Below, piece after piece: positions 14,640-45,426 of a stretch of 64,000 bases of DNA. How positions within the stretch are numbered: the stretch's first letter is position 1; every line of letters begins with the position of its first letter. The notes under the pieces are model-generated. The model searched no databases and was not told the DNA's origin. It saw only the letters and a program-made list of their open reading frames with translations. Both the position numbers and the translations under genes were made by a program. The stretch is from the NCBI RefSeq assembly GCF_000758705.1, contig NZ_CP009287.1:6014001-6078000 (forward strand), in the 5' to 3' direction. The DNA comes from Paenibacillus graminis (GTDB lineage Bacteria > Bacillota > Bacilli > Paenibacillales > Paenibacillaceae).

Positions 14640-15115
14640 AAACCTGTATTTGACCATTCTGACCAAAAACTTTCATCTTTTACCCTTACCTTTACCTGCA
14701 GGGGCTCAAATGTTGGGAGTTTCACACTAGAAAACCATGTTCCTGCTGTTGTTGTTAGACTAGTTTTAACTTCCCTCGAATCAGACACTATGCCCCCGAC
14801 TCATCAAGTACCTGTACTTGGTATGCCGTGAACTTGGTTAGCTCCGCATCCTTCTGATTCCATGAAATCGATGGATTGCTTACATTGGTCTCAGATGGAT
14901 TCTCTTGCGTACCCAGTAGGTAGGTCAGGGTCCACCGGTGCCCGATTCTCTTGCACCTGTACTGGAACCAGTCGCTGTGCTGTGGTTCCATCCCCTAGCT
15001 GTCCCTCATCGTTACCTCCCCATGTCCAAACACTTCCATCGGTTTTCGAGGCTATCCCAACCTTCTCTCCCCCTGCTACAGAACTCGCCCCACTTAACCC
15101 CGTCCAATGTGGGAG
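14640..15115 (-). pseudogene. RCC1-repeat surface protein, second remnant
   Basis: Minus-strand frames encode GLSGASSVAGGEKVGIASKT and TDGSVWTWGGNDEGQLGDGT (RCC1 repeat), then after a frameshift NPSISWNQKDAELTKFTAYQ and VQVLDESGA, matching the C-terminal module of the copy at 2342-3390. It breaks off near 15115, where sequence in the opposite orientation begins. Confidence 0.7.
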
Positions 15116-19754: not shown

Positions 19755-19925
19755 AAATCATAACAAGCTAATTCTTCCATGTCAATATTCCTTAACTTAT
19801 ATAAAAAAAGTAAATACATTTGCCTGTCCTGCTTGGAGGAAAATCCTTTTTATGTGTCGAAATGTAAATTGATTTGTTTTTTTGCTCTGCATGTCCAAAT
19901 CCATATGATGAAGGCAGGTAATTCG

Positions 19926-21026: not shown

Positions 21027-22280
21027 CTAAATTCCTTTTTGTCTTAGGAATGAGAATATAGAATCGACCGCAAGCCTGACTCCTCCGGACATTTGGAACG
21101 AGCGGTTCAGCTTGTCTCCGTTCTCTTTGTACTTTTTATCCTGATAAATTTTGTAAGCCGTTTCACGCAGCTCCCTAGGGCTAATCTCAGAATTCCTTAC
21201 ATAAATCCCAGCCTCCATGTCATCCAAATGGCTGGATATGGTGAACTGGTCGGCTCCCTGTGGAAACATGATCATGGGTACATTATTGTAAACAGCCTCG
21301 CACACACTATTATATCCCCCATGTGTGATGAAGACGTCTGCTCTTTCCAAGACATCCATCTGGGGGTGAAAGGCACTCAAATAAAAATTATCAGGGACGG
21401 GGATATCGCCAATATCCACAAGACTGCCAATGGACATTACAATTTGCCATTCGGTATCCCTGAACGCATCAAAGCACTTTTGATAAAAGCCGGGGCGGTT
21501 CGTATAGATTGAGCCTAACGAAATATAGATAAACGGCTTGCCGGACATCTCTTCGATACGGGAATCTACACCTGTCCGATCCTGACGGATGTTAGGTCCG
21601 ATGAATGCATAGCTTTCATCAAAGGTATCCGCAAACGGCTGAAACTCTTTTGTGGTGTATACAATATTAAGCTCCTCCCGTCCTGTAAATGCATCAAGCG
21701 CATCAAAGTCCTTGATTCCATGAGCCATAGCGATTTGCTTGGACATTACGTCCAATTCTTCGCTTAAACGGCTCTTCCAGATGGAATCCAGGTACTCCTG
21801 TCCTTTGTCAGGGGGAATGCGAAATACATTTTCCAGGAAGTACAATGGAGCAGCATCGATCATGGTTTTGTTAATGGCAAAGGTAAGCACGTAGCACAAG
21901 ACCGGGACATCAAGGACACTGGCTAGTTGTTTTCCCCAAAAGGCATCACAGTCCCGGATGATATAATCCGGGTTATCGGCCATAACCTCCGGCAAGATGG
22001 CGTTGATGATCTTTTTGCTTTTTTCGATGACCCCCGGCACGAGATAGTTTAGCAGTACTTTGGGATGTTCGACCTCAATAGTAGTGGCGCTGTTGTCGAA
22101 CATCCCTCTTGCGTGCCCATAGCTTCGGAACGTCACCCCCATTGCCTCAATGGTTTCCCTGAAACTCTCGTTGGAATAATAAATAACCTCTTCGCCCCGT
22201 GACACCAACTCCCTCACCAAAGTAAGGGTTGGCATCACGTGGCTGTAAAAAGGAAAGCTCAAAAACACGATTTTGGACAC
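21027..22280 (-). CDS. MGT-family UDP-glycosyltransferase
   Basis: About 417 residues, GT1 family of the macrolide-glycosyltransferase (YjiC/OleD) type. SKIVFLSFPFYSHVMPTLTL is the acceptor-side start with the catalytic-type His, and HGGYNSVCEAVYNNVPMIMF with PQGADQ is the nucleotide-sugar motif. I chose GTG 22280: AAAGGAT precedes it and the length then matches the paralogue upstream. It would transfer a sugar from a UDP donor to a small molecule in the cytoplasm. Tandem with the next gene and at the end of the synthetase operon, it suggests product glycosylation or reversible self-protection. Confidence 0.85.
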   Translation of the reverse strand: MSKIVFLSFPFYSHVMPTLTLVRELVSRGEEVIYYSNESFRETIEAMGVTFRSYGHARGMFDNSATTIEVEHPKVLLNYLVPGVIEKSKKIINAILPEVMADNPDYIIRDCDAFWGKQLASVLDVPVLCYVLTFAINKTMIDAAPLYFLENVFRIPPDKGQEYLDSIWKSRLSEELDVMSKQIAMAHGIKDFDALDAFTGREELNIVYTTKEFQPFADTFDESYAFIGPNIRQDRTGVDSRIEEMSGKPFIYISLGSIYTNRPGFYQKCFDAFRDTEWQIVMSIGSLVDIGDIPVPDNFYLSAFHPQMDVLERADVFITHGGYNSVCEAVYNNVPMIMFPQGADQFTISSHLDDMEAGIYVRNSEISPRELRETAYKIYQDKKYKENGDKLNRSFQMSGGVRLAVDSIFSFLRQKGI

Positions 22281-22326
22281 TGTATGACATCCTTTCGCCC
22301 AGAAAATAACCGCCTGCACAGAGGAG

Positions 22327-23583
22327 CTAAACGACTATGGCTTCTGAGATAAAAGCCAGAATAGCGTCTGCCCCCAGCTTTGCTCCGCCGGATAACCGGA
22401 AGGAGTCTGCCAATTGCCTACAATTATGTCGATATTCACTATTCTGATAAACACCCTCCACGATTTCCAGCAATTCCACAGGAGATATCTCCCGGTTTCT
22501 CACATAAACACCTGCACCGGTTTCTTCTATACGGCTGGAGGTAGCCACTTGGTCGGCACCCTGCGGAAACAAGACCAGCGGCACATGATTATCGATCGCT
22601 TCACTTAAACTGTTGTAGCCCCCGTGTGACAGGAACACATCTACCTGCGGCATCAACTCTACCTGCGGAACCTGATTTACCACTACAAAGTTTGCCGGAA
22701 CATCGCCCAGCAATGAAATATCCACCTTCTTTCCAACGGACATAATGACTGAAAATCCGGTGTCTCTGAACGCTTCCATGCATCTTTTATAAAGCTCCAG
22801 CGTGTTATTAAAAATATTCCCGAAGGCGATGAGCAGCACGGGCCTATCCGCCTCTTTTTGAAACGGAAAATCCGTTTTTTCTTTGCTTGCCCGCACGCTC
22901 GGACCGATAAAAACGTAGTTGTCGCCAAATGTTTCCGCGTAGGGCTGAAACTCCCTGGAGGTATACACAATGTTGAATTCATCACCGCCTGCCAGCGCGT
23001 CCAGTACAGTATATCCCTCTACACCTTGTTCCTTGGCGATCCCTGCTGTAATATGATCCAGAACCTGGCTGACACTTTCCTTCTCCGCAACCGGCAGCGA
23101 ATCCGCGGACATGCTGAATACAGATTCCATAAAACCTTCCTTGTTGATATCCATCATCCTGTTATTTAATGCAATGGTAGTGATATAACAAACGACCGGC
23201 ACATCCAATATATTACCGAGCAGCCTTCCCCAATAAGCCTCGCAATCTCTTACGATATAATCAGGGTTATCGGCCAGTACACGGTTGACTATTCTTTGCA
23301 CCACTTTTTTGGACTTCAAAATTTTACTTGGCACGAGCGAGTATAAAATATCAACGGGTGTCGGATACCCGGCATAATTAATCTGATCGGTCGCCGCTTC
23401 CAGTAGCCTAATGATGTCTCCATAATCTCTGAAGACCGCTCCTGACTCTTCTACGGCATCCTTGTACGCCTCAACCGAGTAGTAAATCACCTCCTCTCCC
23501 CGGTCAAGCAGTTCACGAACTAACGCCAAGGATGGAATGACGTGGCTAAAGAAAGGGTAGCTCAGAAAAATCACCTTTGACAT
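22327..23583 (-). CDS. MGT-family UDP-glycosyltransferase, paralogue
   Basis: This 418-residue GT1 enzyme is closely similar to the following gene. It starts SKVIFLSYPFFSHVIPSLAL and has HGGYNSLSEAIDNHVPLVLF with PQGADQ. It lies 15 bp after the last NRPS gene, so it is very probably co-transcribed with the synthetases. The two enzymes differ most in the N-terminal, acceptor-binding half, which suggests different positions or sequential addition of sugars. Confidence 0.85.
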   Translation of the reverse strand: MSKVIFLSYPFFSHVIPSLALVRELLDRGEEVIYYSVEAYKDAVEESGAVFRDYGDIIRLLEAATDQINYAGYPTPVDILYSLVPSKILKSKKVVQRIVNRVLADNPDYIVRDCEAYWGRLLGNILDVPVVCYITTIALNNRMMDINKEGFMESVFSMSADSLPVAEKESVSQVLDHITAGIAKEQGVEGYTVLDALAGGDEFNIVYTSREFQPYAETFGDNYVFIGPSVRASKEKTDFPFQKEADRPVLLIAFGNIFNNTLELYKRCMEAFRDTGFSVIMSVGKKVDISLLGDVPANFVVVNQVPQVELMPQVDVFLSHGGYNSLSEAIDNHVPLVLFPQGADQVATSSRIEETGAGVYVRNREISPVELLEIVEGVYQNSEYRHNCRQLADSFRLSGGAKLGADAILAFISEAIVV

Positions 23584-23598
23584 GTTTGCACATTCCTC

Positions 23599-26500
23599 CT
23601 AATCTCGTTGCGTAACAATGGGCTGGATGTTTCCTGCGGCCTCCTGCAGGACAAATAAAAGGTCATCTCTATCTTCTTCAAATGGCAGGATGATTTTTAG
23701 CTTCAAATAGTCTTCCCCCTGCCAGACATAGAACCCGATCTTCCCGTTGCTGTCTTCCGCCCGCTCACCATATTCTGCGCTGACCGCAATTTCTTGCAAT
23801 GTGAGATCCTTGCTGCAGGATTGTAAGACACCATAGTAGTTGAACATGATCGACGCACCTGAATATAGCTTTTCAAGAAGCCTGGAGGTCTCCGCAAAAG
23901 GATAAGCCGTCCCTCCATTCAGCATCAGATTGACAAAGCTGATGTTGCCCTTGACACATTCATTAACCTGATGCTGAATCCATTTTTCGAGGGAATCCGT
24001 TTGGTTATTTCCCGCCAGCACTGGTATAACATCTGCAAAGTCTCCGACGATATCGTAATAGAGATTCTCTTCATAACGTCTTCCGTTATTCACCAGCCAA
24101 AAGGGTACCTCGCGGATTCCAAACATTTTGCCGCAAAGGGGAATCATTACCTCTAAAGCGAGCTGCCAATGCGATTTCTCCTTGTTCCCCAGCCTCAGGG
24201 GGATAACCAGATCTAGCATTGTAGATTTATGCCTGTTTTTGGAGTTGATGTACTTCTCCAATTCTCTGGCCTGCGCTGCAAATTCGGCCAACCGGAACAT
24301 CTCGCACAATTTCTGCTCGCTTAGATTTTGGGGTCCCTTTTGCATTTGGTCCGCATAATCCCAATAGTTCTGATGATGCTTTAGGGAGTGAACAGGCAGT
24401 GAAGAGTCGCCGGCAAAGTAAGCAGCCAATTGATCCGTGATAATCCCCAGGCTTAATCCATCAGAAACGGCGTGATCGGCAGAATACAGCAGCATATAAT
24501 CTTCAGGAGCGGTTTGGACCAGAACTAAACGGTATAATAATCCATTGTCCCGTTCAAATGGAAGTTTGTTGAAATGATCTTGCAAATAAGCCAGACATTC
24601 ACTTCTCCGTGCTGCATCAAAACCGGACAGATCAATCAATATAAACGGAAGATTATATACAGAGCCATGTTCGTAAAAATACGTATTTTCTCCATCATTT
24701 ACGATTACAGATCTCAACAGCACCTGTTCGTTTACGAGCCGCAAAATAGCTTTTTGAATCTTGCCAATATCGCCGCAGCTCCGAAATGGAATGGAAGTAT
24801 GAACCTTTTCGGCATTCATCAGATGGTATTTCTGAACAGCCGCCGGCAAATGTTTCCCAACCAACGGGGCATTTCGGATACTTTCCGTATGCTTTAGCTC
24901 TTGATCCTTTATCTCAGCCAGCCATATGCTGCATAATACTTCTATAGAAGCATCCCCTTCAGTGCCAGATGAATCGATTCTTCCAACAGGGTTCTCCAGG
25001 ATTGGATTATTCCGCAGATCCCGGACACATTCTGAGAGCTCGGCAATCTTCTGGCGATGAAACAGATCCTTGATTTCCATATGCAGCCGGTGCTTACCCA
25101 GTATTGCAGCCACTTGCATTGCCTTCAGAGAATCTCCGCCAACCTCAAAGAAATTATCTTCGATTCCCACCTTTTCCAGCCGCAGCACTTCTTCCCAGAC
25201 TTCCGTCAGCATCAGCTCGATTTCGTTCCTAGGGGCGATGTATCCGGAATGGCGCTGCATATTATTCTCCGGCACAGGCAATAATTTCTGATCAATCTTG
25301 CCGTTAGAGGTCAACGGGAAGGCCTCCATTCGGACAAAATACGCAGGAATCATAAATTCAGGCAATTTGCTCAGGAGCTGCTTCCTTAATTCGGTCACTG
25401 AATAATCCATTGCGGAAATGTAGTAAGCACAAATGCTGGCATGCTGAAGCTGATTTTTCCGGTGTGTTACGATTACATCTTTAATGCCTTCGATCTTAAG
25501 CAATTCCGCTTTAATTTCTTGAGGCTCAACCCTGAAGCCCCTTATTTTGACCTGCTCGTCCATCCGGCCCAAATACTCCAGATTCCCATCCGGCAGCCAT
25601 CTAGCCAAGTCGCCTGTCCGGTACACTTTTCCGATTCTGGAATCGGCAGCAGTAATTATTTTATCCGCGGTCATCTCAGGCCGCTTCCAGTACCCCCTGG
25701 TCAAGCCTATACCGCCAATACACAATTCTCCCGGAATTCCCACCGGTTGAAGATTGCGATATTTATCCAGGATATACATTTGAGTATTCAGTATCGGCTT
25801 GCCTATCGGAACGGGGTCATCCATTTCACCTTGCTCATTGGCGATCCAAACCGAAGAATATACGGTCGTTTCCGTCGGTCCATAGGCATTGATGTACTCG
25901 CATTTCTTTTTCCATTCATTGACCAGTCCGGATGAAATCGCTGAGCCGATCGTAATCATCTTGTCAACCGTATGAATGTTATTCGGATTCAAATTGGCCA
26001 AATAAGTCGGCGGCAGGATTGCTGCCGTAATCCTGTTGGAATTTAGAAATGCTTCGAAGCAGCTGTTGTCATTCAGGATCTCCTTGGTCGTGAGACATAA
26101 AGTACCGCCCAGCAAGATGGACATGGAAATATCCATTAATGATACGTCAAAGGAAATGCTGGAAAATTGAACAACCCGCTCGCGGTCCTGAATTTTAAGC
26201 TGCTCCTTGTTGGAGGCGGTCAGGTTCACGATCCCTTTGTGCTCCAGTAAAGTTCCCTTAGGCTTTCCGGTTGTGCCGGAAGTATAGATCATATAAGCCA
26301 AGTCGCTTGACCGGTTTATTACAGTGAGGTTAGAGCCATCCACATTGTTCAGTCCGGCGCTATTCAGATCTATAACTTCCCCGTCGAAATCCAGCCAGTT
26401 ATAAGGAATGTTCTGGGTCAGCACTAATTGTATGCCGCTGTCTTCAATCATGAATTTGATTCTTTCATCCGGATAGGCCGGGTCGATAGGTAAATACGCG

Positions 26501-29500
26501 CCTCCAGACTTAAGAATGCCCAGCCAACCGATCATCATTTCAAAAGAACGCTCAAACATGAGGCCCACTACTGAACCGGCGGTGACGCCTTTCTCTCTCA
26601 GCAATCGCGCCAACTGATTTGCTCTCTTATTCAGCTCACCGTAGCTCATGGTTTGATCAAGAAACTCCAGGGCAGGCTCATCACCGCGGCGTTTCGCCTG
26701 TTCTTCGAACAATCCATGAATGGTTTGACCGGCCGGCAAGTCGAACGAAGTCTGGTTGAAAGCCAATATCTGCTGGACAGCATTCTCTGAAACCATGCAG
26801 ATATCGGATATTCTAATCTCCCGGTCCACAATGACCTGGCTGACTATTGCTTTGAGATAATCGATCATGGTCTCCACGGTTTCGCGTTTGAATAATCTGG
26901 TGCAGTATTCGAAGCTGCAGTGCAGCAATCCATCCAGTCCTTCCAGACAATGAAGGGTAATATCGAACCTTGAAATGTTGTGCTCGTGTTCATAGAAAGA
27001 TACCTTCATCTCTCCGAACTGAAACTGATTGACGGCGATATTCTGCAGAATAAGCATGGCATCAAAAAGAGGATTCCGTCCCGTGTCCCTCACGATGTCC
27101 AGTTTTGAAATTATTTCTTCAAATTGATAATCCTGGTTGTCAAAGGCACTCAGTGCACTGCTTTTGACCTCATTTAAGAAATCCTTGAATCGTTTATTCC
27201 CTGCGGGGAAATTTCTCATCGCCAAAGTGTTCGAGAACATGCCCATGACACTTTCCAGTTCAACCTGCCTTCTGCGTGTGACAGGGGAACCCACTATAAT
27301 GTCTTCCTGGTTCGTGATTTTGGACAGCATAATATTAAAAAGGGCTAAAAGAAGCATATACAGCGTCGCGCCATTGTCGCCCGCAAGCTCTTTGAGCTCG
27401 CAAGTAGTTTCTTTATCGAGAGTAAAAGGAATTTTGCTTCCTTCATAACTCTTGTGAACCGGTCTCTTGTAATCAACGGGCAATTCCAGCAGCGGAACTT
27501 CGCCCTTGAACATATTCAGCCAGAACTCTTCCTGCTGCTTGAAATCTCCGTTCTCAGCGGATTCCTTCTCCCATACAGAAAAATCCTTAAACTGAATTTC
27601 CGGCTCCGGCAGTACGGCATTCCCATAAAGCAGGGCCAGTTCTTTAATGAACAACCCAATCGAAATCCCGTCAGATATAATATGATGCATATCGAACATA
27701 AAAAGATAACGGCGGCTGGCGATTTTGATGACCTTCACCCTGAACAGCGGGGATGTGTCTAAATCAAAAGGCTGAATGAACCTGTCTGCCTCTAAGCGGA
27801 TATCGTCTATTTTCTCTTCTGTATAATCGATTGAAAAATCAATAGTGTCATGCACAACCTGAACCGGCTCATGATGTATCATATGGAATGAGGTTCTTAA
27901 TATTTCATGGCGGGAGATCATTTGCCTAAGGACGCTTTCCACCTGACCAACATCCAGTTCTCCCTCCATCACCATCACTTCCGGCATATTATAGCTCGTA
28001 GATTCCCCTTCCATATGGTATAGGGCGTACATTCTTTTTTGTGCTGAGGACATGGGGTAATAATCCCGTTTTTCTGTTGGCAGAATAGAAGAGTACGTGC
28101 CGGGACGTTTACTTTTAATCAAGGCCGCGAGGTTGCATATCGTTTGCTTTTCAAATATTTCATCCAATTCGATTTCCACCTGGAATTCCTTATGAAGCCT
28201 AGACAAAAGCATGGTTGCCTTCAGAGAATGGCCGCCCAGCATAAAAAAATTATCATGAATCGAGACTTTGTCGACCTCCAGTACATTTTTCCAGATTTCC
28301 ACCAGTCTGCTTTCAATTTCATTCGTCGGATGCTGGAACCGGGCCCCAAGTTCCTTAAGGTCCTGATTCCGCAAGGCATTCCTGTCCATTTTTCCTGTCG
28401 GCGTCATGGGGAACTGTTCCAGTTGAAAAAAGTGGGTTGGCAGCATATACTCCGGCAGAGACTTCGACAACGATTCCCTTAGCTCCAGCGCCGATAACAC
28501 TCTGTCGCACACAATATAAGCATAAATTCTGGAGTTATCGTTTTGATCCTCCCATAGTGCAACTGCCGCTTCCGTGATTCCGTTATATTCCAGCAAACGG
28601 TTTTCGATTTCTCCCAGCTCAATCCGGTAGCCTCTGAGCTTAACCTGTGTATCTGCCCTTCCGATAATTTCTATTTCCCCGCCCGTTGTCCAACGTGCAA
28701 GGTCTCCTGTCCGGTACATTCTTTCGTTGGCCTCAAATGGATTGCTGACGAACTTATCACGGGTAAGCTCTTCATTATGCAAATATCCTCTCGCCAGACC
28801 GGCGCCTGAAATGCACAGCTCCCCGACCATACCCGCCGCTTTTAATTCCAGATTGTCGCCTACGATATAAACTCTGGTATTTCCGATAGGTTTTCCGATC
28901 GTCAGCTCTGTGTCATCCGATTTCAGATCCCTTTTGAGGGTTGCCAGCACACTGCTTTCTGTTGGTCCGTATTCATTCACGATTTCCAATCCGGGATGCA
29001 GTTGCTTGCTAGCCATGAGTAAATTGGGCGTTACTTTCTCACCTGCTAAGGTAACGATGCGGAGGCTTTGGGCCTCCTCGGGCTTCATGTTCCGCAACAA
29101 TGCGCTGTATAAGGTGGGTACGGCGATAAAATGAGTGATTTTATTCAATGTGATCAATCGAATAATGGCTAAAGGATCTCTCGCTTCCGTTTCGTCCAAA
29201 AATACTACCGTGGCACCGGATACGATAGGCGTAAAAAAGCTGGTAAGGAATCCGTCGAAAATATAGGAAAACAACTGAAGCATACGGTCATTTGCATCAA
29301 AGCTGTATTCGCTTTTTCTCCACTGGATAGTGTTCGAAATGCTGCGGTGTTCGATAATAACACCTTTAGGCAGTCCCGTAGTACCCGATGTATAAATAAC
29401 ATAGGCGGGATGATCTAAAGCTCTGCTTAGAATTAAGTCCAGATCGCTTTCGTTCTCCAATAAGACATCATCATCCAGCCGAATGACTGTCAAACCGTCC

Positions 29501-30651: not shown

Positions 30652-30689
30652 AATCTCGTTCAACCCCTATTCACATGCAGGATGATAGA

Positions 30690-36600: not shown

Positions 36601-39600
36601 CCCGCACCGTTAATCGCTTTCGCAAGTCCTTTCACGGTCGGATGCTCAAACAACATTCTCAGCGAAATGTCAGTACTAAATTCCTTCTGTATGCTGAAAG
36701 CCAGCAGAGAGGCTTTTAACGAATTCCCCCCAAGCTCGAAAAAATCGTCATTGGTGTTGACCGGTTCAACGTCAAGCACATTTCGCCAGATTTCCGCCAG
36801 CCTTTTTTCGGTCTCATTTTCAGGAAGCATGATCTCTTCCCGCAAGGCCTTATTCTCATCAAAAGCCGGCAGCAGCCTTTCGTTGATTCCCCCCTCTGAA
36901 TTCAGCGGCATTTCATCTAAGACCATGAAAGCGGTAGGAATGAAATTCCCCGGGATTCTGGAGAGCAAAAACTTCTTCATTTCCCTAACCTTCGGAATGG
37001 AAGTCCCCCGTGGTGTGATGTAGGCCAGTATTTTTTGGTCCTGCTGAAAAGTACCGGAAGGTTTAACCGTTACTGCAGCATGTCCGATTAGTGGATGAAG
37101 CCCCAATTGTTCCTGTATGGTATCCAAATTAATCATCCGGCCATTTTGGGACATGAGGCGGGAATGATGCCCGATGACCTTTATTTCAAAATCTGCTGTA
37201 TACATAGCCATAATCCCTGTACTCGTGCATGGTTGCTCCGCAAGAAGCGACGGTTCGGTTAGCCTTGCCAAATACACCTCACCCGGCACGCCTACAGGCG
37301 AAGGGTGCATATCCTTATCCAAGATTGCGAAGAAATCAGCCTTATCCCATGCAACCCCATATTTATCCAGATCAGCCCGCAATGCCGCCGCTTGTTCAGT
37401 TCCCCTTGTCCGAAGAATCTTCTCTTCTTCCAATGAAAGCAGAGAGATTTCCTGTAATTTCTGGTCAGGTTGGAGAACCGCCAGCAGAATTCGGTTGAAA
37501 TAATTAGCCCAACCCGTGATTATCTGTGTATCGAACAAATTTGGGTCATATTCAAAATCAATCATAAGCTCATGATCAAGCTCGACAATATTCATACTCA
37601 GGTCATATTTCGAGTAACTAACAGGCGATTGAAGAAGCTCGACGTCCATCCCCGTGAAATCAGGCGTTTCTAACGACTTATCCATATTAAACATCGTATT
37701 GATCTGCGGAGGATGAACGGAGCCGTCCATGGAATGCAATTCCTTCATAAGTGATGCATAAGAGTAATCCTGATACTCATAGAGTTCCAATAATTCTTCC
37801 ATCATGTAGGAAAGATACTCCCGGAAGGTCATTTCAGGATTGATTGTAGTAGAGAAAGGAAGAATATTCAGGCAATAGCCGACTAAGTGCTTTTGCCCCA
37901 TTTGCATCTGCCCTGCAGTAGGAATCCCGACAACCAGTTCCTTATGATTGGAAATCCGATACAACAGCACCTTGTATGCGCTCAATAAGACTGTAAAAAG
38001 TGACACTTTCATGCTTTGGCTAACCGCCTTCAGCTTTGCGGTCAACGGGATATCAAGTACATACCGGTGTCTGCTGCCTTTTCGTACTCCGGCGGCATCC
38101 CTGATCCTGAATGAATGCAGCTCAAATGCGGGGGTTTGTACAGAAAACTTGTTTTTCCAATAGGCTGCTGCCTTTTCTTTTGGTTGGGACTCCAACATTC
38201 GCTTTTGCCAAATGGCGTAATCGGAGAAGGGTGTGGGAGTCGGCAGCAGAGAGCGCGTGCCCGTACATTCGGTTGAGTACAATGCAGCAAGCTCCTGCAA
38301 GAAAACAATCAATGACCAGCCGTCTGCGATGATATGATGGGCGGACAGCGCCAGCAAATACTCATGTCTGGCTGTAGCCAGCACCCGAAGCCTGATTAAC
38401 GGCCCCATTACAGAATCAAAAGCAGCTGCGTTTTCCTTCAAAAGCGCTTGATTAATCGCTTCATCACCCAAGGCGCTATAGTCTGCCAAAATGTCAGCAA
38501 AAAAAATGTCTGCATTTGCATGACTTGCAACTATTTGCTCATTCCCGTCTGCGCTTATGGTTGAGCGCAAGCTTTCGTGACGGTTCAACACTTTATGATA
38601 GGCAGTTTCAAGCGCAGCCTTATTCAGCTCTCCCCGCAAATATAAACCAACGGTCTCATGGTGTACGACACCATGGGTGTCATTTGAATGAATGACCAGG
38701 CTGATTTGCTGCTGCTCTTCGGTTAATTTGAGAACTTGGGGTGCCCTGGTCAAGCTCTCCCGGGGAGGTCCGGAGGGCAGCGGCTTTGGCTGATACCCGC
38801 CCCTTGGCCGGTTATCCGGACCCGGGAGGAAACCCGCCGCCTGCATTTCCCCGATGCTTTGCTTAACGGCATCAACGATATATTGAATATCCTCGTCCGT
38901 GTGGGCTGTGGAGATAAAGCAATTTCTTCCTTCCCAGATGTAAAGGCCTTTGTTAAGCAATAAATAATAAAAGAGCTCCAGATCCCCGCGCAATACGAAC
39001 CTGAACAGCGATCCAAAATGAACAACATCCACAGGTACATTCTGCTCCCTGAAATAGGTGTTCAATTGATCGGCAAGCCGGGCAGTACGAAAATTGAGAT
39101 TGGCCTGCAGCTCCGGCCCCATTCTTTCGAGATGGGTCAGCACAGCCAATGCTGCGTTCATGGCAAGGGGATGCTGGCAGAAGGTTCCCGCAACAAACGT
39201 TCTGCGTTCTTCATGAGCCGGCTGTGAATCATCGTAAAATTTCCAGGCACCTCCATCAATACCATTCATAAACCGGTCTGTTCCGGCAACTACACCGATT
39301 GGCAGCCCGCCGCCGATGACTTTGCCATAGGTAGCCAGATCAGCCTTAATATCAAACAGAGCCTGTGCTCCTCCAGGGTGCATCCGAAACCCTGTAATGA
39401 CTTCGTCAAAAATGAGCGCAGTTCCTGACATAGAGGTTATTTCTCTGATCTTTTTCAGAAATTCTACCGGCTGAAGATCAGGTCTGCGGCTCTGCACAGG
39501 TTCCACCAAGACTGCCGCCAGCTCATTTGCATGAGCTTTAATGATTTCTAATGCCACAGCGGTTCCATAATTAAGCACTATGATGTCTTCGACCATGTTG

Positions 39601-42600
39601 TGATTGATACCGGGAGCAATAGGCTGTGCACCTGCATTCACAGATCCTCCCATTGCCAACACGCCGTCGAATGTACCATGATACGACCCGGAGAACAGGA
39701 CCACCTTGGAACGTCCTGTCGCAGCGCGGGCCAGCCTTAGTGCCACCATAACGGCTTCAGTTCCCGAGTTGAAGAATGCGGTTCTGTCTGTCCCTGTAAA
39801 TTTACAAATCAGAGCAGCGACCTCTCCGGCAGTTTGGGATATGGGACCAACAGCCATGCCTCTTTCCAATTCCCGTTGAATCCCATCATTGATAAAAGGC
39901 ACATTATGCCCGAACAGATTCACTCCGAATCCCATTGTCAGATCAACATATTCGTTCCCGTCAATGTCCCAAATCCTTGATCCGGAAGAATGATCCACAA
40001 CTATTTGGTAGACGATATCTTTCCAGTATGGACGAAATCCCGCTACATTTCGATTATTGGCCAGAACATATCGGTAATCATCGGTATGCTTCTGAGAACC
40101 TGCTGTTTTGTGAGTATAAGCGGATATAAAGGAATCCAAGAACTGCTGCTGTATTGCCGAAAAGTTAGTGGAGGCCTTCAACGGGATGTGCTGGTAAGGA
40201 ACAAACGCTCTTTTAGTCTCATTAGCAGCTTCCGGATCGGGGCTATGGCCTTTGCTTCCAGTGCCGGCCTGAAGTGGTTGTACTGCCTTTAGTCTGCCTG
40301 CCGGCCCCACAGTGGACGGCTCCTCTTCCGGAGTTCCTAATGCGTGTAAAAGCTCCAGTTGCTGGGACATCACCTGCAACTGCTTCTCCATTACGCTTTC
40401 TACAGCAGACAAATTAGCAGGACTCTTATAGCTGGACTCTTCACGTTGGCTTGCCTGCCTGTCCATAAGTGGCATTTGAATTGCCGCTGCTTGCTCTTGA
40501 AGACCAACGGCTGCCGCCGCCTCCTGATAACCGGATGGTTCCGGCCCGGCATTTAGGGGAATCAGACTTACAAGATAATCCCCAATAGAATCGATGGAGG
40601 ACAACTCTTCAAAAAACATTCTCATCGGCACATCAATATCAAACTGCTCTTTAATGGCATGCCTGGAGCTGGTCAGCAGGATGGAATCAAGCCCCATCTC
40701 CAGCAGATTTGTATGTATGTTAATATCGCCCGGCTCCAGTCCGGACACCTCACTAAATATATTCTTTAAACTATTAATCACATGGCGTTTATTCTCGTTA
40801 TGATACATGTCGGCCAGGGTCTCCTTTCGATTGAAATTGAGAGCCATTGCGGGTTCTTCATGGTGTTTTTGACGTGTATCCGGGAGCCTGATCCAGCAGC
40901 GCTTTCTCTCAAAGGGATAGGTGGGAAGCGGTACGATCCGTCTTCGTTCGCCCGTGTACACAACAGTCCAATCAGTGCCTTCCCCGTTGGCATATGAGCT
41001 GCACAATGAATGCAGGAATTCCGAACCCGGTTCCGGCATCCCGGAACCGGATTGTTCCCAGGCTCCTGAATTCGCCAAAGAAGAGTGGGAGTAGATTCCA
41101 CCTTTACCGATTTCGAAATTGTCCGGTGAAAGACTCACTCTGTTAAGTTTAGTGATCAAATCTTCCAGATTCTCGGCAATTATCGCCAAACGGTAACTGT
41201 AATGCCCCCTTCCAATATTGGATGTATAGCAAATATCCCGAAATTCCGCCGCATCAGCACCGGCCAAATAATTGATATAGTCCCCGATTATTTTCTCCAG
41301 AGATAGAGGGTTCTGGGCTGAGAGGGTAAGTGCAGCCGGACGCTGGTCTGCCTTAATCGGACTATCTTTCCGCAACGGCGCTTCCTCCAGCACCACATGG
41401 CAGTTCGTTCCGCTCATCCCAAAAGAGCTGACACCACATCTTCTTGCAAAACCTGCCGGATTCCAGTCGGCCAACCCGGTATTGGGGTATACGGGAGAAT
41501 CTATAAAGTTAATATTTTGGTTGGGTTTCTCAAAATGAAGGGTCCCGGGTATTTTTTTGTTGTGCAGGGATAATGCCGCTTTGATCAAACTGATAATTCC
41601 TGCTGCGTAGTAGAGGTGTCCAATATTTGTTTTTACCGAGCCAATTGCACAAAATTGCTTTTTATCCGTATATCTGGAAAAAGCCCGCTGAATTCCGTCA
41701 ACCTCGATCGGGTCGCCAATTTTGGTCCCTGTACCGTGGGTTTCAATATAGGTGATGGATTCCGGTTCAATCCGGGCCTGTTTCCACGCATTCAAAATCA
41801 GGGATTCCTGTGCAATGACATTCGGCGATGTAATGCCAATCGATTTCCCATCTTGGTTGGCAGAGCTTCCCTTAATTGTGGCATAGATATGATCGCCGTC
41901 CTGCAGCGCTTTCGCAAGAGGCTTCAGCACAACGGCACCAACACCTTCTCCCTTGACCGTCCCATCTGCGCGGTCATCAAATGTCTTTACTTTGAAAGTT
42001 GGTGATTCAATTCCTACTTTTGGCTGATCCTGCAAGGGGAACAGGTCCAATTGTATGCCCCCGGCTATTGCCATTTCACAATCATTATTCATAATGGATT
42101 GACACGCCAAATGAACGGCAACCAATGAAGAGGAACACGCCGTATCCACCATGAGACTCGGACCTTTAAGATCAAGCATATAGGATATTCTGCTGGCGGT
42201 GACGGGGGACAAATTCCCGGCGACCGAGGGAACGAAAGAATCGGGATCGGCTTTTTCAATCATTTGCCGGTATTCATGCTCGCCGCCGGAGCCTACGTAG
42301 ACTCCCGTCCTGCTACCGGTCAGACGCTCTCCGCCATATCCGGAATTTTCAATCGCAGTCCATGCGGTTTCAAGAAAAAGCCTCTGGTAAGGGTCCATCA
42401 GGCTTGCTTCCTTTGGAGTAATCCGGAAAAACGAGTAATCGAACTTATCGATTTCCTCCAAATAGCCGCCTTGTATAAATCCCGGACTTTCTGCAGCACC
42501 ACAAAATTTCAGGTATTGCTCAACGTCGCTTCTTCTTTTTTCCGGAAACTCTGAAATATGGTCTCTTCCGGCGCAAAGGTTGTCCCAAAACTGATCTATA

Positions 42601-42725
42601 TTTTCAGCTGAAGGCAGCTTTACCGCAATTCCAATAATAGCGATATCATTATTGCAAGCGCTTTCCACTTGTACCAAAAGATTTATCGCCTTCTCCTCAG
42701 GGATATCCAGCAATTTTTTGATCAC
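30690..42725 (-). CDS. Hybrid PKS-aminotransferase-NRPS megasynthase
   Basis: 4011 residues from GTG 42725 (AAGGAGG 9 bases upstream). Domains: KS (about 25-440; DTACSSS with Cys197, ETHGTGT, NIGHLYYAAG); linker without AT; ACP (Ser681); Ala/Gln-rich linker; class III aminotransferase (about 880-1300; PLP Lys1135 in YGKVIGGG); C1 (HHIIADG 1463-1469); adenylation remnant (about 1772-1947) lacking core motifs; T (Ser2002); C2 (HHIIADG at 2182); A (about 2500-2990; TSGSTGFPKG); T (Ser3040); E (HHLVVDG at 3219; SFNYLGQF); C3 (HHILMDG at 3692). KS-ACP-AMT resembles iturin/mycosubtilin-type enzymes that make beta-amino fatty acids. C3 after E should accept a D-residue. Confidence 0.92.
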   Translation of the reverse strand: MIKKLLDIPEEKAINLLVQVESACNNDIAIIGIAVKLPSAENIDQFWDNLCAGRDHISEFPEKRRSDVEQYLKFCGAAESPGFIQGGYLEEIDKFDYSFFRITPKEASLMDPYQRLFLETAWTAIENSGYGGERLTGSRTGVYVGSGGEHEYRQMIEKADPDSFVPSVAGNLSPVTASRISYMLDLKGPSLMVDTACSSSLVAVHLACQSIMNNDCEMAIAGGIQLDLFPLQDQPKVGIESPTFKVKTFDDRADGTVKGEGVGAVVLKPLAKALQDGDHIYATIKGSSANQDGKSIGITSPNVIAQESLILNAWKQARIEPESITYIETHGTGTKIGDPIEVDGIQRAFSRYTDKKQFCAIGSVKTNIGHLYYAAGIISLIKAALSLHNKKIPGTLHFEKPNQNINFIDSPVYPNTGLADWNPAGFARRCGVSSFGMSGTNCHVVLEEAPLRKDSPIKADQRPAALTLSAQNPLSLEKIIGDYINYLAGADAAEFRDICYTSNIGRGHYSYRLAIIAENLEDLITKLNRVSLSPDNFEIGKGGIYSHSSLANSGAWEQSGSGMPEPGSEFLHSLCSSYANGEGTDWTVVYTGERRRIVPLPTYPFERKRCWIRLPDTRQKHHEEPAMALNFNRKETLADMYHNENKRHVINSLKNIFSEVSGLEPGDINIHTNLLEMGLDSILLTSSRHAIKEQFDIDVPMRMFFEELSSIDSIGDYLVSLIPLNAGPEPSGYQEAAAAVGLQEQAAAIQMPLMDRQASQREESSYKSPANLSAVESVMEKQLQVMSQQLELLHALGTPEEEPSTVGPAGRLKAVQPLQAGTGSKGHSPDPEAANETKRAFVPYQHIPLKASTNFSAIQQQFLDSFISAYTHKTAGSQKHTDDYRYVLANNRNVAGFRPYWKDIVYQIVVDHSSGSRIWDIDGNEYVDLTMGFGVNLFGHNVPFINDGIQRELERGMAVGPISQTAGEVAALICKFTGTDRTAFFNSGTEAVMVALRLARAATGRSKVVLFSGSYHGTFDGVLAMGGSVNAGAQPIAPGINHNMVEDIIVLNYGTAVALEIIKAHANELAAVLVEPVQSRRPDLQPVEFLKKIREITSMSGTALIFDEVITGFRMHPGGAQALFDIKADLATYGKVIGGGLPIGVVAGTDRFMNGIDGGAWKFYDDSQPAHEERRTFVAGTFCQHPLAMNAALAVLTHLERMGPELQANLNFRTARLADQLNTYFREQNVPVDVVHFGSLFRFVLRGDLELFYYLLLNKGLYIWEGRNCFISTAHTDEDIQYIVDAVKQSIGEMQAAGFLPGPDNRPRGGYQPKPLPSGPPRESLTRAPQVLKLTEEQQQISLVIHSNDTHGVVHHETVGLYLRGELNKAALETAYHKVLNRHESLRSTISADGNEQIVASHANADIFFADILADYSALGDEAINQALLKENAAAFDSVMGPLIRLRVLATARHEYLLALSAHHIIADGWSLIVFLQELAALYSTECTGTRSLLPTPTPFSDYAIWQKRMLESQPKEKAAAYWKNKFSVQTPAFELHSFRIRDAAGVRKGSRHRYVLDIPLTAKLKAVSQSMKVSLFTVLLSAYKVLLYRISNHKELVVGIPTAGQMQMGQKHLVGYCLNILPFSTTINPEMTFREYLSYMMEELLELYEYQDYSYASLMKELHSMDGSVHPPQINTMFNMDKSLETPDFTGMDVELLQSPVSYSKYDLSMNIVELDHELMIDFEYDPNLFDTQIITGWANYFNRILLAVLQPDQKLQEISLLSLEEEKILRTRGTEQAAALRADLDKYGVAWDKADFFAILDKDMHPSPVGVPGEVYLARLTEPSLLAEQPCTSTGIMAMYTADFEIKVIGHHSRLMSQNGRMINLDTIQEQLGLHPLIGHAAVTVKPSGTFQQDQKILAYITPRGTSIPKVREMKKFLLSRIPGNFIPTAFMVLDEMPLNSEGGINERLLPAFDENKALREEIMLPENETEKRLAEIWRNVLDVEPVNTNDDFFELGGNSLKASLLAFSIQKEFSTDISLRMLFEHPTVKGLAKAINGAGKSCLPEITPLGKKDWYPQSSSQKRLFAIEQMGETGIAYNITGVLHVEGKLDPGRMEEAFQRLVTRHEPLRTSFELVHDEPVQVIHDDIPFSISYGIAEDEDEPELVKQFILPFSLNQAPLFRVHIVSRSDHEHIVIMDMHHIIADGISANILCNDLISLYSGENLPGLEVQYKDYTALHNEMLNNERIRLQGEYWQQLLSDDVPSLTLPLDFPRPAVQSFDGACYSVTLDSDLTRRLKVLSNRLKTTLYTLLLASYNILLSKYSNQEDIVIGSPVAGRFNYSTNNMVGMFVNTLAMRNQPAKHKTFQEFLLEVKENTLKAFENQDYPFEELISKLGIERDISRNPVFDVMFVLQSLDLAVPDVHLDDIRLNGYEFKNDVAKFDLILEVIENSENLTLNFEYCAKLFEESTIIRMSERFLRILTTVVENCNVLLSDIDLLPKEETDRLIYTFNDTATAYPGGKTVYQLFEEQAARTPGAVALVHQGESITYEHFNRKANQMAWMLRSNGVKPDTTVGILMEHSFELIISLFAVMKAGGAYVPIDPTYPSERINFIIKDSNLEIMLTHKGLAEKCQFQGVVIDAASSKWYCGDDSNPVSVNSPDDLAYIIYTSGSTGFPKGVMTRHQGLTNYVWWGDKTYVHGEAVDFPLYSSIAFDLSVTLIYIPLISGNKVFIYSGVSYESLLEAVVIDNQVDFIMLTPSHLKILGEYDLSRLKIRKFIIGGEAFDPFYAKKFFSRLAEDVEVYNVYGPTETTVACTFYRYYPDKDLRNPVPIGRPIFNVHLYVVDQNGKLQGIGIPGELCIAGDGVSRGYLNREELTREKFVPDPFRTSGMMYRTGDLVRMLQDGNVEFLGRMDDQVKIRGHRIELGEIENQLVKQPGVNKAAVIIRTGPTDSRYLCAYYTADFPMNSELLRESLSRLLPRHMVPSFFVQMESIPLTASGKVDRKKLPDSFESFQMEEAYSAPQNFIEEKLALVWEEVLGINRVGTGNSFIKLGGDSIKAIQIVSRLKKYGLSLEVKELFLHQNIKGISPFVKQNIKRHNQGTIEGPVKLTAIQKWFFEQNFAEMHHWNQSILLHNERFDAQFIRQAFERITEHHDALRMVYRHTGQAGVEQSNRGLAGELFSLEVTDLTACDDHTDLMHAGIKTIQEGIDLEKGPLLKLGLYQTTNGDYLAIVIHHLVVDGVSWRIILDDFASCYLSLDNGEEAGLIEKADSYQKWAEALEVYANSPMLLQELAYWTDVNRIAVPALPKDSEAGNGKIKDRYQTKIVLSEKETTNLLRHAGDAYQTETLDLLLAALGAAIKGWANVDRVRINMEGHGRETLIQDLDITRTVGWFTSTYPLVLELANSHELPLHIKTTKETIRQTPNKGMGYQVLKYLTSPELRAAVDFNVMPEISFNYLGQFGNEASYGTFEIYNTFMESTESPESHRPYAIDINAMIVGNRVEIRVDYNPGQFNETTMSRFAELLLNSLKLIISHCTGQERIQRSPSDLTYKKLTFEELDDLNRLYPGGITDVYTMTPMQESMLFHALKNKRSGAYYEQCILDLKGDIITELLNESFKLIVGKYDILRTRFVYKKLHRPLQIVLGSSDFRLEFEDITHMESSEKMEHVERLKALDREKRFDLVQGPLMRAILLKTGDSVYQMLWSFHHILMDGWCIGIVLKDMLEHYKQLNAGSRPSLETHQYRLYLDWLAGKNKEEAKVYWMRYLEDYKYKELLPKEGTSKEFRLAVLDIKLEEKVRIAVTHVASSSGITINSFFQAVWGILLSKYDNAEDVVFGAVISGRSPEIEGIERMVGLFINTIPVRVRLSGKTFHELAGEIQSSFISSEQYGYVPLSDIQAWSHRDLINHVMVFENYPLDREIRDMDGQQMEYGFQIAGCEILEHTNYDFSIIIEPGEDFIIRIVYNALAYDKETISILESYLLAIIGQVTACPQIEAGDVEVLSQEEKLKLMNVFNKPNRREAADFNF

Positions 42726-42752
42726 AACAGGGTCCTCCTTAAGCTGTCTTTC

Positions 42753-45371
42753 TTACATAACACCCAGTGGTTTATGATCCTTCGCAAACCGGTTAACAAC
42801 TCCATACAACGCTTGAGCGTACCGCTGGATAAAGTTAAGCATGGGCTCGCTGCGAACCTCATTTGAATTGAATTCGCACACAAAATGAATTCCGTTATGA
42901 TCCTCATTGAATTTCAGTACTAAATCATACACGTCAAGCAAATTTCCGGCCGATAGATTCAAGTGCTCCTTACAGATAAAAGGAACTACGCTGTTCTTTT
43001 TATGGATAAAAAATCTGCTTACATCCTGGATATGATAGATTTCCCTAGTTCCGGGTTTGACGGTTTCGTTAGCCAATGTAAATAAGTCCTCCAACCGGTC
43101 GATTTGAGCGAAGTCAGCCGTAAACGGCACTACCCAGCCGCTTCCATCCATCATTGTTTGAACCTCTATCCGGGCAGACGGAGACAGCTCATACAACAGA
43201 TAAACGAACATCGACAGAAGAATCGATTCGTGTTTCAGATGCTCCGCAGCAGCGATGTGCTTCAACTGACTAGTGAATTCATGATCAACTGAAAAGCTGA
43301 GTGTCCTGCTCAAACCGTCTTCCTCTTCCGCATGAGAGCCGTTCTTGAAAAATTCCTCCGGCAATTCCAAGGCTCTGATGTGAACGCTTGCATTAATGTC
43401 ACTGCCGTCCTGCAGGATCAATCCGGCCAATTTACTGATGGAAGGATATCCGAATAAGTCAGTTAAAGTGATCTTGCCAGGATATTCACGATCAACCTGT
43501 TCAAACATTTGAGCCAGCAAAGTCGAAGTTCCGCCAATTTCAAAAAAGTTATCTTTAACACCAAGCCTGTCATTGCCGAGTACGTTAGCCCATATGCTCA
43601 GCAGTGTCGCTTCCACCGTATCCTTCGGCTGATCTGCATCGATTCTGGAGGTTATTGTATTCGTGACCTTCTCCATTTCAGCCAGCAATCCTGTAAATTG
43701 TCCCTCCAGGAACAAGCTTTTCATTTTATATCTCTGCACTTTTCCGCTGGTCGTTTTTAGTATCTTTTTGACAGGGATGATATGCCGGACATGTATGCCG
43801 ACTTTAAGATTCAGCTGTTTTCTCAATTCTATCGCCAGAGGTACAAAAGTTTCTGGTTTGTCTTTATAGTTCACAAACAGAATCACTTCCTCCGTTGCCA
43901 GCTGCTCGTTATAAACACCGCACGCTGCAGTAACCCCGATTCTGGTTCCGGTAAATTCCTCTGCCACCCTTTCAATATCCTGCGGATAAAAATTCTGGCC
44001 ATTAATAAAAATAATGTCCTTCTCTCTGCCGGTTACAATAAGGCTGCCGTCCTTCATAAATCCCAGATCGCCTGTCCTGAGCCACCCATCCTTGGTAAAT
44101 ACCTTCCGGGTAGCTTCCTCGTTATTGTAATAACCGTTCGTGACATTGTTGCCCTTGATTTGGACATGCCCTACCACGCATTCATCCAATACCCGGTCTT
44201 CTTCATCACACACCCTTACGAAGCAATTCTCAATAGGGTTACCCAAATCTACCAAGGAGACAATATATTCCTTATCCTTGTGGTTTTCTTCAACAATTTG
44301 GACACGGCTACCTGTATTGATAGAGCTTCTTACGATGTTATAAGACGTAAATTCATGTCCGGGCTTGTAAAGAGTTACAGCAGCCGTCGCTTCCGCCAAG
44401 CCGTATCCGGGAAGGAGCGATGTTCTAGGCAGGCTGAACTTATCCATAACCTCAAGAAACTCGTTGCATAGCTTGGCGTCAATGGGTTCGGCTGCGTCAA
44501 GCAACACCCGGACATTTGATAAATCCCATTCGTAGCTGCATTGTGAACGGTAGAAAAAGGTCAAAAAGTACTTCATTCCAAAATTGGGGGACGCGATGAC
44601 CGTGGATTTTAAATCACTCGCTTTTTTGATCCAAAGTGTCGGCCGTCTGATAAAGACCCATGTTGGCAATAAGGATTGTCTGCCTCCGCAAGTCAGCGGG
44701 AGCAGGTGGAAAACGATCATCCCCATATCATGGGTAAGCGGCATCCAGCTTAAGAACGAGTCGTTTGCCGAGTAATTTCTGCTCTTCTTGAGATCATAGA
44801 GATTTGTAAGCAAATTATCATGGGTCAATGTGACCCCTTTGGGGTCTCCCGTTGTTCCGGAAGAAAATTGGATAAATGCAATATCATGAGATTCAGGGCT
44901 GCAGAGTACGACATCTTCCGCCCCGGAATATTCGAGGGTTTCCGTATGTATTGTGCGATTGGCAATGGACGAGGCGAAACGGTAAAAATCCGTTTGGTGT
45001 GCGGTTAAATCCGGTTTGAGCAATGATTTTGAATCCGTTATCAAAAATGGGCGATGAAGAACATTCCAAATTTTTATCAGCTTATGCTTATGCTCGTCAT
45101 TATTCCCCACATTGACAGGTACAGGGATCATGCCTCCCAATATACACGCCCAAAACGCGAGAATAAAGGTTTCATTATTTTCAATTTGAAAGATGACTTC
45201 ATCTCCGGACTGAATCCCTTTGCTTCTCAAGAATCGTAAAGCTCCGGTGGCTCTTGTATACATCTCCTTGTACGAATAATAGTTGTGTTCGTTATCCCCA
45301 TTGATGAAAGTAATCCCTTTGTGAGCATCCTTTGACCGGGCTATAAGCATTTCAACTAAACTCTTATACAT
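42753..45371 (-). CDS. Fatty-acyl-AMP ligase with ACP and half C domain
   Basis: About 872 residues from ATG 45371 (AGGAGG 7 bases upstream). Residues 1-590 are an acyl-AMP ligase of the FAAL type: SSGTTGDPKGVTLTHDN, SWMPLTHDMGMI, GYGLAEATAAV and GREKDIIFINGQNFYPQDIE. An ACP follows, with Ser616 in EIGGTST. The last ~200 residues (about 670-865) resemble the C-terminal lobe of a condensation domain without its active site. It should activate a free fatty acid and load it on its own ACP for the KS of the next protein. It is the first gene of the synthetase operon, 27 bp before the PKS/NRPS gene. Confidence 0.9.
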   Translation of the reverse strand: MYKSLVEMLIARSKDAHKGITFINGDNEHNYYSYKEMYTRATGALRFLRSKGIQSGDEVIFQIENNETFILAFWACILGGMIPVPVNVGNNDEHKHKLIKIWNVLHRPFLITDSKSLLKPDLTAHQTDFYRFASSIANRTIHTETLEYSGAEDVVLCSPESHDIAFIQFSSGTTGDPKGVTLTHDNLLTNLYDLKKSRNYSANDSFLSWMPLTHDMGMIVFHLLPLTCGGRQSLLPTWVFIRRPTLWIKKASDLKSTVIASPNFGMKYFLTFFYRSQCSYEWDLSNVRVLLDAAEPIDAKLCNEFLEVMDKFSLPRTSLLPGYGLAEATAAVTLYKPGHEFTSYNIVRSSINTGSRVQIVEENHKDKEYIVSLVDLGNPIENCFVRVCDEEDRVLDECVVGHVQIKGNNVTNGYYNNEEATRKVFTKDGWLRTGDLGFMKDGSLIVTGREKDIIFINGQNFYPQDIERVAEEFTGTRIGVTAACGVYNEQLATEEVILFVNYKDKPETFVPLAIELRKQLNLKVGIHVRHIIPVKKILKTTSGKVQRYKMKSLFLEGQFTGLLAEMEKVTNTITSRIDADQPKDTVEATLLSIWANVLGNDRLGVKDNFFEIGGTSTLLAQMFEQVDREYPGKITLTDLFGYPSISKLAGLILQDGSDINASVHIRALELPEEFFKNGSHAEEEDGLSRTLSFSVDHEFTSQLKHIAAAEHLKHESILLSMFVYLLYELSPSARIEVQTMMDGSGWVVPFTADFAQIDRLEDLFTLANETVKPGTREIYHIQDVSRFFIHKKNSVVPFICKEHLNLSAGNLLDVYDLVLKFNEDHNGIHFVCEFNSNEVRSEPMLNFIQRYAQALYGVVNRFAKDHKPLGVM

Positions 45372-45426
45372 TACTAGCCTCCTAATAATTATCATTTATG
45401 TAAGAGATCAAATGTATGTGTTGAAT

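Follow-up and report, generated by a model that had tools for sequence, protein, structure and literature searches.

To our knowledge, few glycosylated lipopeptides have been described. The synthetases of iturin-type lipopeptides have seven A domains and end in a thioesterase. The paenilipoheptins of Paenibacillus polymyxa, with seven residues, are made by the three synthetases PhnC-E (PMC11959601). According to passages of PMC9581180, the cystomanamides of Cystobacter fuscus are linear 3-amino fatty acyl peptides, cystomanamide A containing Asn-(OH-Asn)-(OH-Phe), and cystomanamides C and D carry fructose; a table in this review gives their assembly line five modules, with FkbH and a thioesterase. 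The mycobacterial glycopeptidolipids, as described in parts of PMC3537567 and PMC1885439, combine a 3-substituted acyl chain with a short tripeptide core and are decorated by the dedicated glycosyltransferases gtf1/gtf2. Here we describe a locus in Paenibacillus graminis which, judged from its genes, is likely to direct the biosynthesis of a short beta-amino lipopeptide with attached sugars. The literature that we searched yielded neither a glycosylated lipopeptide from Paenibacillus nor a description of such a cluster.

Gene layout and domain order

Pfam and NCBIfam scans of the window (the whole stretch of 64,000 nucleotides that was analysed) revealed five tightly spaced minus-strand genes, coding for three NRPS-type proteins and then two MGT-family glycosyltransferases. 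They are protein 1 (880 aa, 42753-45395), protein 2 (4011 aa, 30690-42725), protein 3 (2354 aa, 23599-30663; Pfam and blastp) and, by TIGR01426, MGT1 (418 aa, 22327-23583) and MGT2 (430 aa as listed, 21027-22319). The nominal gaps were 27, 26, 15 and 7 nt, in agreement with the earlier note, which had placed the MGTs in the same transcription unit. The genes and most of the domains that it had proposed were confirmed. Its count of about four peptide modules was corrected to three complete A domains, because just an A remnant is left in the first C-PCP downstream of the aminotransferase.

Protein 1 reads FAAL-ACP-half C, and its FAAL (43686-45365, minus strand, as are all domains below) and ACP (43410-43631) had been recognized before. 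Its best family was the fatty acyl-AMP ligase PRK09192 (325 bits, under the cut-off of 600). The half condensation domain at its end (42756-43409) comprises the C-lobe only; it was conserved across 13 aligned sequences and matched the C-lobe of solved C/E domains weakly (best E 1.2e-4). The upper end given previously, 45371, corresponds to residue 9 (Met) of the ORF starting at 45395. Since five of eight related FAAL ORFs open with the corresponding Met, in the context MYNT or MFST, this start is at least as good as that of the longest ORF, and the true start is possibly at 45371.

Protein 2 reads KS-ACP-AMT-C-(remnant A)-PCP-C-A-PCP-E-C. The KS-ACP-aminotransferase proposed earlier was found at its start: a KS without AT (40887-42650) with intact DTACSS, HGTGT and NIGH motifs, an ACP (40581-40805) and a class-III aminotransferase (AMT, 38814-40175) that matches the solved mycosubtilin synthase subunit A (6kfm/6kfu). 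These are followed by C1 (37356-38705), a remnant A domain (36840-37355; blastp and alignment), a PCP (36600-36830), C2 (35250-36575), A1 (33741-35240) and its PCP (33510-33731), an epimerization domain E (32136-33491) after the A1 module, and C3 (30726-32075). The remnant is 172 aa long. It retains motif A6 onward, A7 is degenerate in the alignment and the catalytic Lys of A10 has been replaced. Judged from the alignment, the A domain of the module that comes first behind the aminotransferase has been lost. An A-less C-T follows the AMT in all 34 AMT-bearing loci among the 80 loci kept, and A domains in graded states of decay hint at the origin of the A-less module in iturin synthetases. C1 formed one clade with C1 of an iturin-type synthetase of Bacillus inaquosorum (SH-aLRT 99). 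Together with the domain order, this bears out the iturin/mycosubtilin-like start that had been suggested. C3, which lies behind E, grouped with those C domains of bacillomycin synthetase that follow an E domain (99). In all nine clusters of this type (see below) the E motif HHxxxD is conserved, and each of the six carrier domains retains its serine. The earlier note did not mention the E domain after A1, the half C domains that close protein 1 and open protein 3, the terminal C-like domain or the absence of a thioesterase.

Protein 3 reads half C-A-PCP-C-A-PCP-CT, with the half C domain at 29854-30609, A2 at 28354-29847, its PCP at 28108-28335, C4 at 26749-28083, A3 at 25243-26709, its PCP at 25003-25242 and the terminal C-like domain CT, which ends the assembly line, at 23602-24987. 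The structure predicted for CT is a complete C-domain fold (a model), and it stands at the end of the last NRPS without a thioesterase. Pfam scans found no thioesterase in protein 3 or in the final proteins, five in all, of related lines, for two of which the scan covered the C-terminal part only. We propose that CT acts as a release domain ending the assembly line. In the window its motif has lost the first His (ADHAVSDG). It is conceivable, though less likely than not, that CT closes a 13-membered macrolactam on the beta-amine, which would give a small cyclic glycolipopeptide like a shortened iturin.

Glycosyltransferases and distribution of the cluster

Among 394 Paenibacillaceae genomes, at least 9, spread over three genera according to the taxonomy of the genome set, carry these five genes in identical order. 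The cluster is not a chance arrangement, as its five-gene order recurs in nine genomes. Tandem MGT pairs occur in 9 of the 394 genomes, in each case directly behind the NRPS ending in CT. Both enzymes exceed the TIGR01426 cut-off of 260 bits (MGT1 321 bits, MGT2 320 bits), and MGT1, a macrolide-family enzyme of the YjiC/OleI-like kind, has YjiC and an oleandomycin glycosyltransferase among its solved relatives. When MGT2 was aligned with its relatives, the ORF of the closely related cluster in genome G028 began at the equivalent of 22280, and the true start of MGT2 is probably near this position. When 48 MGTs were placed in a tree, the 18 from the clusters grouped in a single clade (100), which also took in 3 of the 30 further rows; the remaining 27 rows fell outside it. 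Pairwise distances of MGT1 and MGT2 correlated with those of the three synthetases at 0.98-0.99 over 36 genome pairs, which are not independent and mostly reflect the separation of the window and G028 from the other genomes. The position of all nine tandem pairs behind the NRPS and their own clade argue that the MGTs belong to the cluster. With the divergence in step with the synthetases, this sustains the link to glycosyltransferases that had been drawn earlier.

The nearby GT4 gene is indeed present, convergent with MGT2 on the plus strand (19779-20999; Pfam PF00534/PF13692). Its association with the cluster is weak: it was seen only in the window and G028 (a 98% relative) and was absent from the stretches fetched for the other seven clusters, although in G035 and G236 the contigs end 0.6 and 1.7 kb past MGT2. 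The GT4 gene may thus lie outside the cluster. Three further minus-strand genes, all present in G028 too, are likewise doubtful members: an ArsR-type HTH protein (18598-19689; PF01022), a possible local regulator, and an ABC transporter ATPase (17628-18578; PF00005) with an ABC-2 type permease (16831-17631; PF01061), together a possible exporter.

MGT enzymes may also serve self-protection or detoxification, which counts against reading the product as glycosylated. A toxic lipopeptide might be glycosylated inside the cell and stripped of its sugar on export, so that the released product is sugar-free. MGT1 matches the oleandomycin self-immunity family OleI (139.8 bits, under its cut-off of 700) and also 2iya, and a transporter adjoins the cluster in the window and in relatives. 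However, two co-diverging MGTs are kept in all nine clusters, and the window ORFs that were searched with Pfam yielded no glycosidase. We consider this explanation unlikely.

Adenylation codes and state of the cluster in the window

The A1 code is DLTKIGEVGK in seven of the nine clusters, identical to that of the annotated BamA and of the B. inaquosorum iturin-type locus; we take it to specify Asn. The A2 code is of the DGTITAE type in all nine, presumably Tyr according to the tyrocidine code. The BamB domain that presumably adds Tyr carries a different code, DALSVGEVVK, which counts against Tyr at A2. The A3 code is of the DAWT type in seven of nine, presumably Phe. The codes would thus read Asn, Tyr, Phe in 7/9 clusters, and the window keeps Tyr only. 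In the window and G028, A1 reads DLTMIGVVAK, so the Asn code of the iturin-type first A domain was not found there. Positions 1 and 3 of the window have changed toward less polar pockets, and we know of no code that matches its A1 or A3.

A malonyl-acyltransferase-type gene lies directly before FAAL in 7/9 clusters, the same place that fenF/ituD has in the iturin operon according to a section of PMC3039948. This FenF-type malonyl transacylase gene is absent beside FAAL in the window and G028, and the best acyltransferase candidates in the window genome, located elsewhere, are 36-37% identical. Together with the changed A1 and A3 codes and the altered CT motif, the lack of an orthologous acyltransferase speaks against the reading proposed below, and could mean that the cluster is silent or decayed in this strain. 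Against decay, none of the five ORFs is interrupted, their identity to those of G028 is 97-99%, and the motifs of the KS, carrier, C and E domains that were inspected in the window are all kept, which favours a maintained function; other free-standing acyltransferases are also present in the genome. Decay therefore appears improbable. Repeated use of modules, as in locillomycin, which has a similar split T-C-T-C-A-T-C start (in part of PMC8949500), would yield a longer peptide and break the three-residue count, but three A domains are kept in 9/9 clusters and analyses not aimed at iteration gave no sequence sign of it, so that we regard it as very improbable.

Proposed product and known systems

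From gene and domain order, motifs, conservation and co-divergence, which are sequence-based, we infer every chemical step, residue identity, sugar, linkage and ring closure considered here. FAAL would activate a free fatty acid and load it onto the ACP behind it in protein 1. The KS of protein 2 would add one malonyl unit, loaded in trans by a free-standing acyltransferase, and the aminotransferase would convert the 3-keto group to a 3-amine. C1 would then transfer the beta-aminoacyl chain to the PCP of the A-less module, after which three modules would add three residues, E turning the first to the D form. The common form of the cluster would make D-Asn-Tyr-Phe, and the window version would keep Tyr with positions 1 and 3 altered. 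CT would free the chain as a linear peptide or as a 13-membered ring closed onto the beta-amine. MGT1 and MGT2 would then attach sugars, most likely at the hydroxyl of Tyr; the predicted Asn-Tyr-Phe core has no other. The product is thus probably a beta-amino-fatty-acyl tripeptide, O-glycosylated on Tyr. The short beta-amino-fatty-acyl glycolipopeptide envisaged in the earlier note is still the best reading, with glycosylation inferred from the genes.

The closest synthetases are those of iturin, mycosubtilin and bacillomycin (MycA-MycC, BamA-BamC). They share the order FAAL-ACP-KS-ACP-AMT-C-PCP-C-A-PCP and the C1 clade and, in 7/9 clusters, the first A-domain code of BamA and the adjacent acyltransferase gene. 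In contrast, the start is split over two proteins after the first ACP in the window, with half-C domains at the break, and an A remnant is kept. Instead of seven A domains and a terminal thioesterase, the cluster has three A domains, E after the first residue, a CT end and two MGTs, and no thioesterase was found. Longer relatives share the FAAL-to-PCP start with the A remnant and the same CT, a domain common to them and this family. G020, G124 and G109 have seven A domains, and four were seen in G003, which is cut by contig ends. No thioesterase was found in the end of G020 scanned, and the stretches retrieved for these relatives contained no MGT homologue.

The suggestion that the architecture matches no known Paenibacillus lipopeptide holds against paenilipoheptin and paenidepsin, the two compared. 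Paenilipoheptin has another sequence, and the three A domains of the window do not fit seven residues from PhnC-E; the stem 'glycos' is absent from the main text on paenilipoheptins. Compared with the cystomanamide line of a myxobacterium, the window has three A domains, and a Pfam scan of the cluster proteins found no FkbH domain. The likeness to the glycopeptidolipids lies in the short tripeptide core with dedicated glycosyltransferases. Their differences are a 3-hydroxy or methoxy acyl chain, an amino-alcohol end, and deoxytalose and rhamnose with sugar-tailoring genes. Their pathway ends in reductive release to the amino alcohol, whereas Pfam found no reductase domain in protein 3, and we know of no aminotransferase step in it.

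A bolder reading, which we consider unlikely, sees in the product the Gram-positive equivalent of the mycobacterial glycopeptidolipids. It would be a beta-amino-fatty-acyl tripeptide with an O-glycosylated Tyr, possibly closed to a 13-membered ring, made by an iturin-type starter shortened to three residues and freed by a terminal C-like domain of a new clade. Its role would be at the cell surface (spreading, biofilm, competition) and not that of a classical antibiotic. The related clusters, at least nine and each with glycosyltransferases of its own, offer a ready set of test strains. Among described compounds, the nearest product types are the cystomanamides and the mycobacterial glycopeptidolipids.

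Domain organization of the cluster

Five genes are packed on the minus strand of the window (G000:C1:6014001-6078000, on a single 7.17-Mb contig), running from 45395 down to 21027 with spacers of 27, 26, 15 and 7 nt. Domains were assigned by Pfam, NCBIfam and domain-by-domain comparison. Protein 1 reads FAAL-ACP-half C, where FAAL is a fatty acyl-AMP ligase. Protein 2 reads KS-ACP-AMT-C1-remnant A-PCP-C2-A1-PCP-E-C3, with a ketosynthase (KS) and a class-III aminotransferase (AMT). Protein 3 reads half C-A2-PCP-C4-A3-PCP-CT, ending in a C-like domain (CT). The macrolide-family glycosyltransferase genes MGT1 and MGT2 come last, in that order. The window sequence preserves the KS motifs, the HHxxxDG motif of E and of each of C1 to C4, and the serines of all six carrier domains. 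The FAAL-ACP and KS-ACP-AMT start claimed by the earlier note was borne out, and its likeness to iturin and mycosubtilin synthesis was supported; the AMT stretch matches solved structures of mycosubtilin synthase subunit A (6kfm, 6kfu).

The same note had counted about four peptide modules. Between C1 and its PCP, the segment 36840-37355 corresponds to no more than the final portion of an A domain: it lacks motifs A1-A5, and another residue takes the place of the Lys of A10. The assembly line is therefore predicted to add three residues, not four. Among the matches listed, 34 of 80 loci had an AMT match, and in all 34 an A-less C-T step follows the AMT. The gap at this step ranged from 23 to 196 residues (23-37 in 14 loci, 103-128 in five and 162-196 in 15); a second short AMT-like ORF was left out of the count in L028 and L064, and L035 was read from a split ORF. 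Thus, an A-less C-T is the usual first step of AMT-bearing synthetases, and in the window the remnant of the A domain is still visible. The graded decay of the A domain across these synthetases is likely a record of the origin of the A-less iturin module.

Protein 1 ends in a C-lobe (42756-43409) that stands without the rest of the domain. This lobe aligns with the C-lobes of seven cluster relatives, with the FAAL-ACP proteins L003, L006 and L010 and with the NRPS protein ends L046 and L059. Searched against solved C and E domains, the half-C profile weakly matched C-lobe parts (best E 1.2e-4). A second, similar half C (29854-30609) lies ahead of A2, following a protein whose last domain is a complete C. 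The half C domains may act as docking or spacer elements at split points. Such C-lobe-only half condensation domains occur at protein boundaries in several Bacillota assembly lines.

Distribution of the family and its glycosyltransferases

We searched the window's own genome together with 99 relatives, and also 100 genomes from its genus, its own among them. FAAL, CT and AMT homologues were present in these searches, with CT in 15 of 100 genomes (E<=1e-12) and AMT-C1 in 11 of 100 (E<=1e-100). Among 394 Paenibacillaceae genomes, own included and with at most four candidates scored per genome, 74 had CT homologues (E<=1e-15) and 27 had MGT1 homologues (E<=1e-70). MGT matches stood side by side in at least nine: G000 (the window's genome), its close relative G028, and G018, G035, G115, G236, G246, G286 and G333. 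All nine have the five genes in unchanged order; the remaining 18 MGT1-positive genomes had a single, weaker match each. These clusters were found through their paired MGTs. Longer lipopeptide clusters with the same FAAL-AMT start and CT were seen in G020, G124 and G109 (L157-L165, seven A domains) and in G003 (L166-L168, cut by contig ends, four A domains seen); no MGT was found in the stretches fetched around them.

All five proteins are 97-99% identical to those of the window in G028 and 36-47% identical in the seven distant genomes. MGT and synthetase distances correlated at 0.98 or above over 36 genome pairs, a value that is only descriptive, since the pairs are related by descent and most of the weight lies with two groups. 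A tree was built from the 18 MGTs of the nine clusters together with 30 of 98 homologues (48 in all). The 18 cluster MGTs and P0007, P0010 and P0011 formed one clade (SH-aLRT 100), divided into MGT1 (85) and MGT2 (98, including these three homologues). This division reflects an old duplication, which most simply took place inside the cluster. Since P0007, named Paenibacillus amylolyticus, is nested in the clade, more clusters may exist. The MGT2 of G018 (Paenibacillus monticola) is identical to the homologue P0006, and the window was assigned to the same genus. Judged by gene order, parallel divergence and phylogeny, the two glycosyltransferases belong to the cluster, as the earlier note had proposed in linking them to the synthetase.

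Predicted residues, sugar site and malonyl supply

A-domain codes were read from positions aligned to the GrsA code and its numbering. A1 carries DLTKIGEVGK, presumably for Asn, in seven of the nine clusters; annotated BamA and L037, an iturin-type locus of B. inaquosorum, share this string. A2 carries DGTITAE(V/I)(V/L)K in all nine, presumably for Tyr by the tyrocidine code; the BamB domain for Tyr carries a different code, DALSVGEVVK. A3 carries DAWT(I/V)AA(V/I)CK in seven, presumably for Phe. The window and G028 have DLTMIGVVAK at A1 and DVMIIIAVYK at A3, so the A2 code alone is universal. In the predicted Asn-Tyr-Phe core, Tyr would provide the sole hydroxyl. On these two grounds we infer O-glycosylation of Tyr. 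Glycosylation at the beta-amine or another site instead is possible. The E domain keeps HHxxxD throughout the nine clusters; the next residue is A in the seven distant ones, and G in G028 and the window.

A Pfam scan of 33 ORF products from the window turned up no acyltransferase domain. The seven distant clusters have a PF00698-type gene directly before FAAL (assigned by Pfam for G333 and G246), and GHSLG is present in all four upstream genes of G333, G286, G236 and G246. TetR and MFS genes lie divergent to these seven clusters (called by Pfam for G018 and G246, and by eye from similar sequence for the other five). The window and G028 have no PF00698-type gene before FAAL, their best homologues (36-40% identical) being located elsewhere, and are flanked instead by an ArsR-type gene, an ABC transporter and a GT4 gene. 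Within the stretches fetched around the nine clusters, the nearby GT4 of the earlier note was seen in these two genomes only, and it may not belong to the cluster. The missing neighbour and the different flanks indicate that the window lineage is a divergent branch. Large further regions with NRPS-like matches were seen in the same genome (G000:C1:1790000-1930000 and 787000-809000), and free-standing acyltransferases there could serve the cluster in trans.

Elsewhere in the window, a plus-strand ORF (14938-16497) has Recombinase and zinc-ribbon matches of a large serine recombinase; its N-terminal catalytic resolvase domain was not matched in the domain scan, and it looks like a remnant. Fragments of an IS110-type transposase (5356-5874) and of a DDE-type transposase (10047-10562) were also seen, as was a two-component system at 54937-57023 (plus strand). 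At 57151-60254 on the minus strand, genes for a periplasmic binding protein and for a permease of FecCD type (689 aa, with two FecCD stretches) suggest iron-siderophore uptake.

Relation to known lipopeptide lines

The comparators were taken from reports on the iturin operon (PMC3039948), cystomanamides (PMC9581180), glycopeptidolipids (PMC1885439, PMC3537567) and paenilipoheptin (PMC11959601). Such a cluster was not described in the portions covered of the open literature on Paenibacillus glycolipopeptides, paenilipoheptin, cystomanamide, Paenibacillus monticola and lipotripeptides (subscription journals, preprints and MIBiG lay outside this scope). The cluster family is real and conserved, and it is undescribed as far as that literature extends. 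It represents a new variant within the iturin-type line of beta-amino lipopeptides, with a predicted chemistry. Compared with that line, the cluster is shortened to three residues, ends in another terminal domain and carries dedicated glycosyltransferases.
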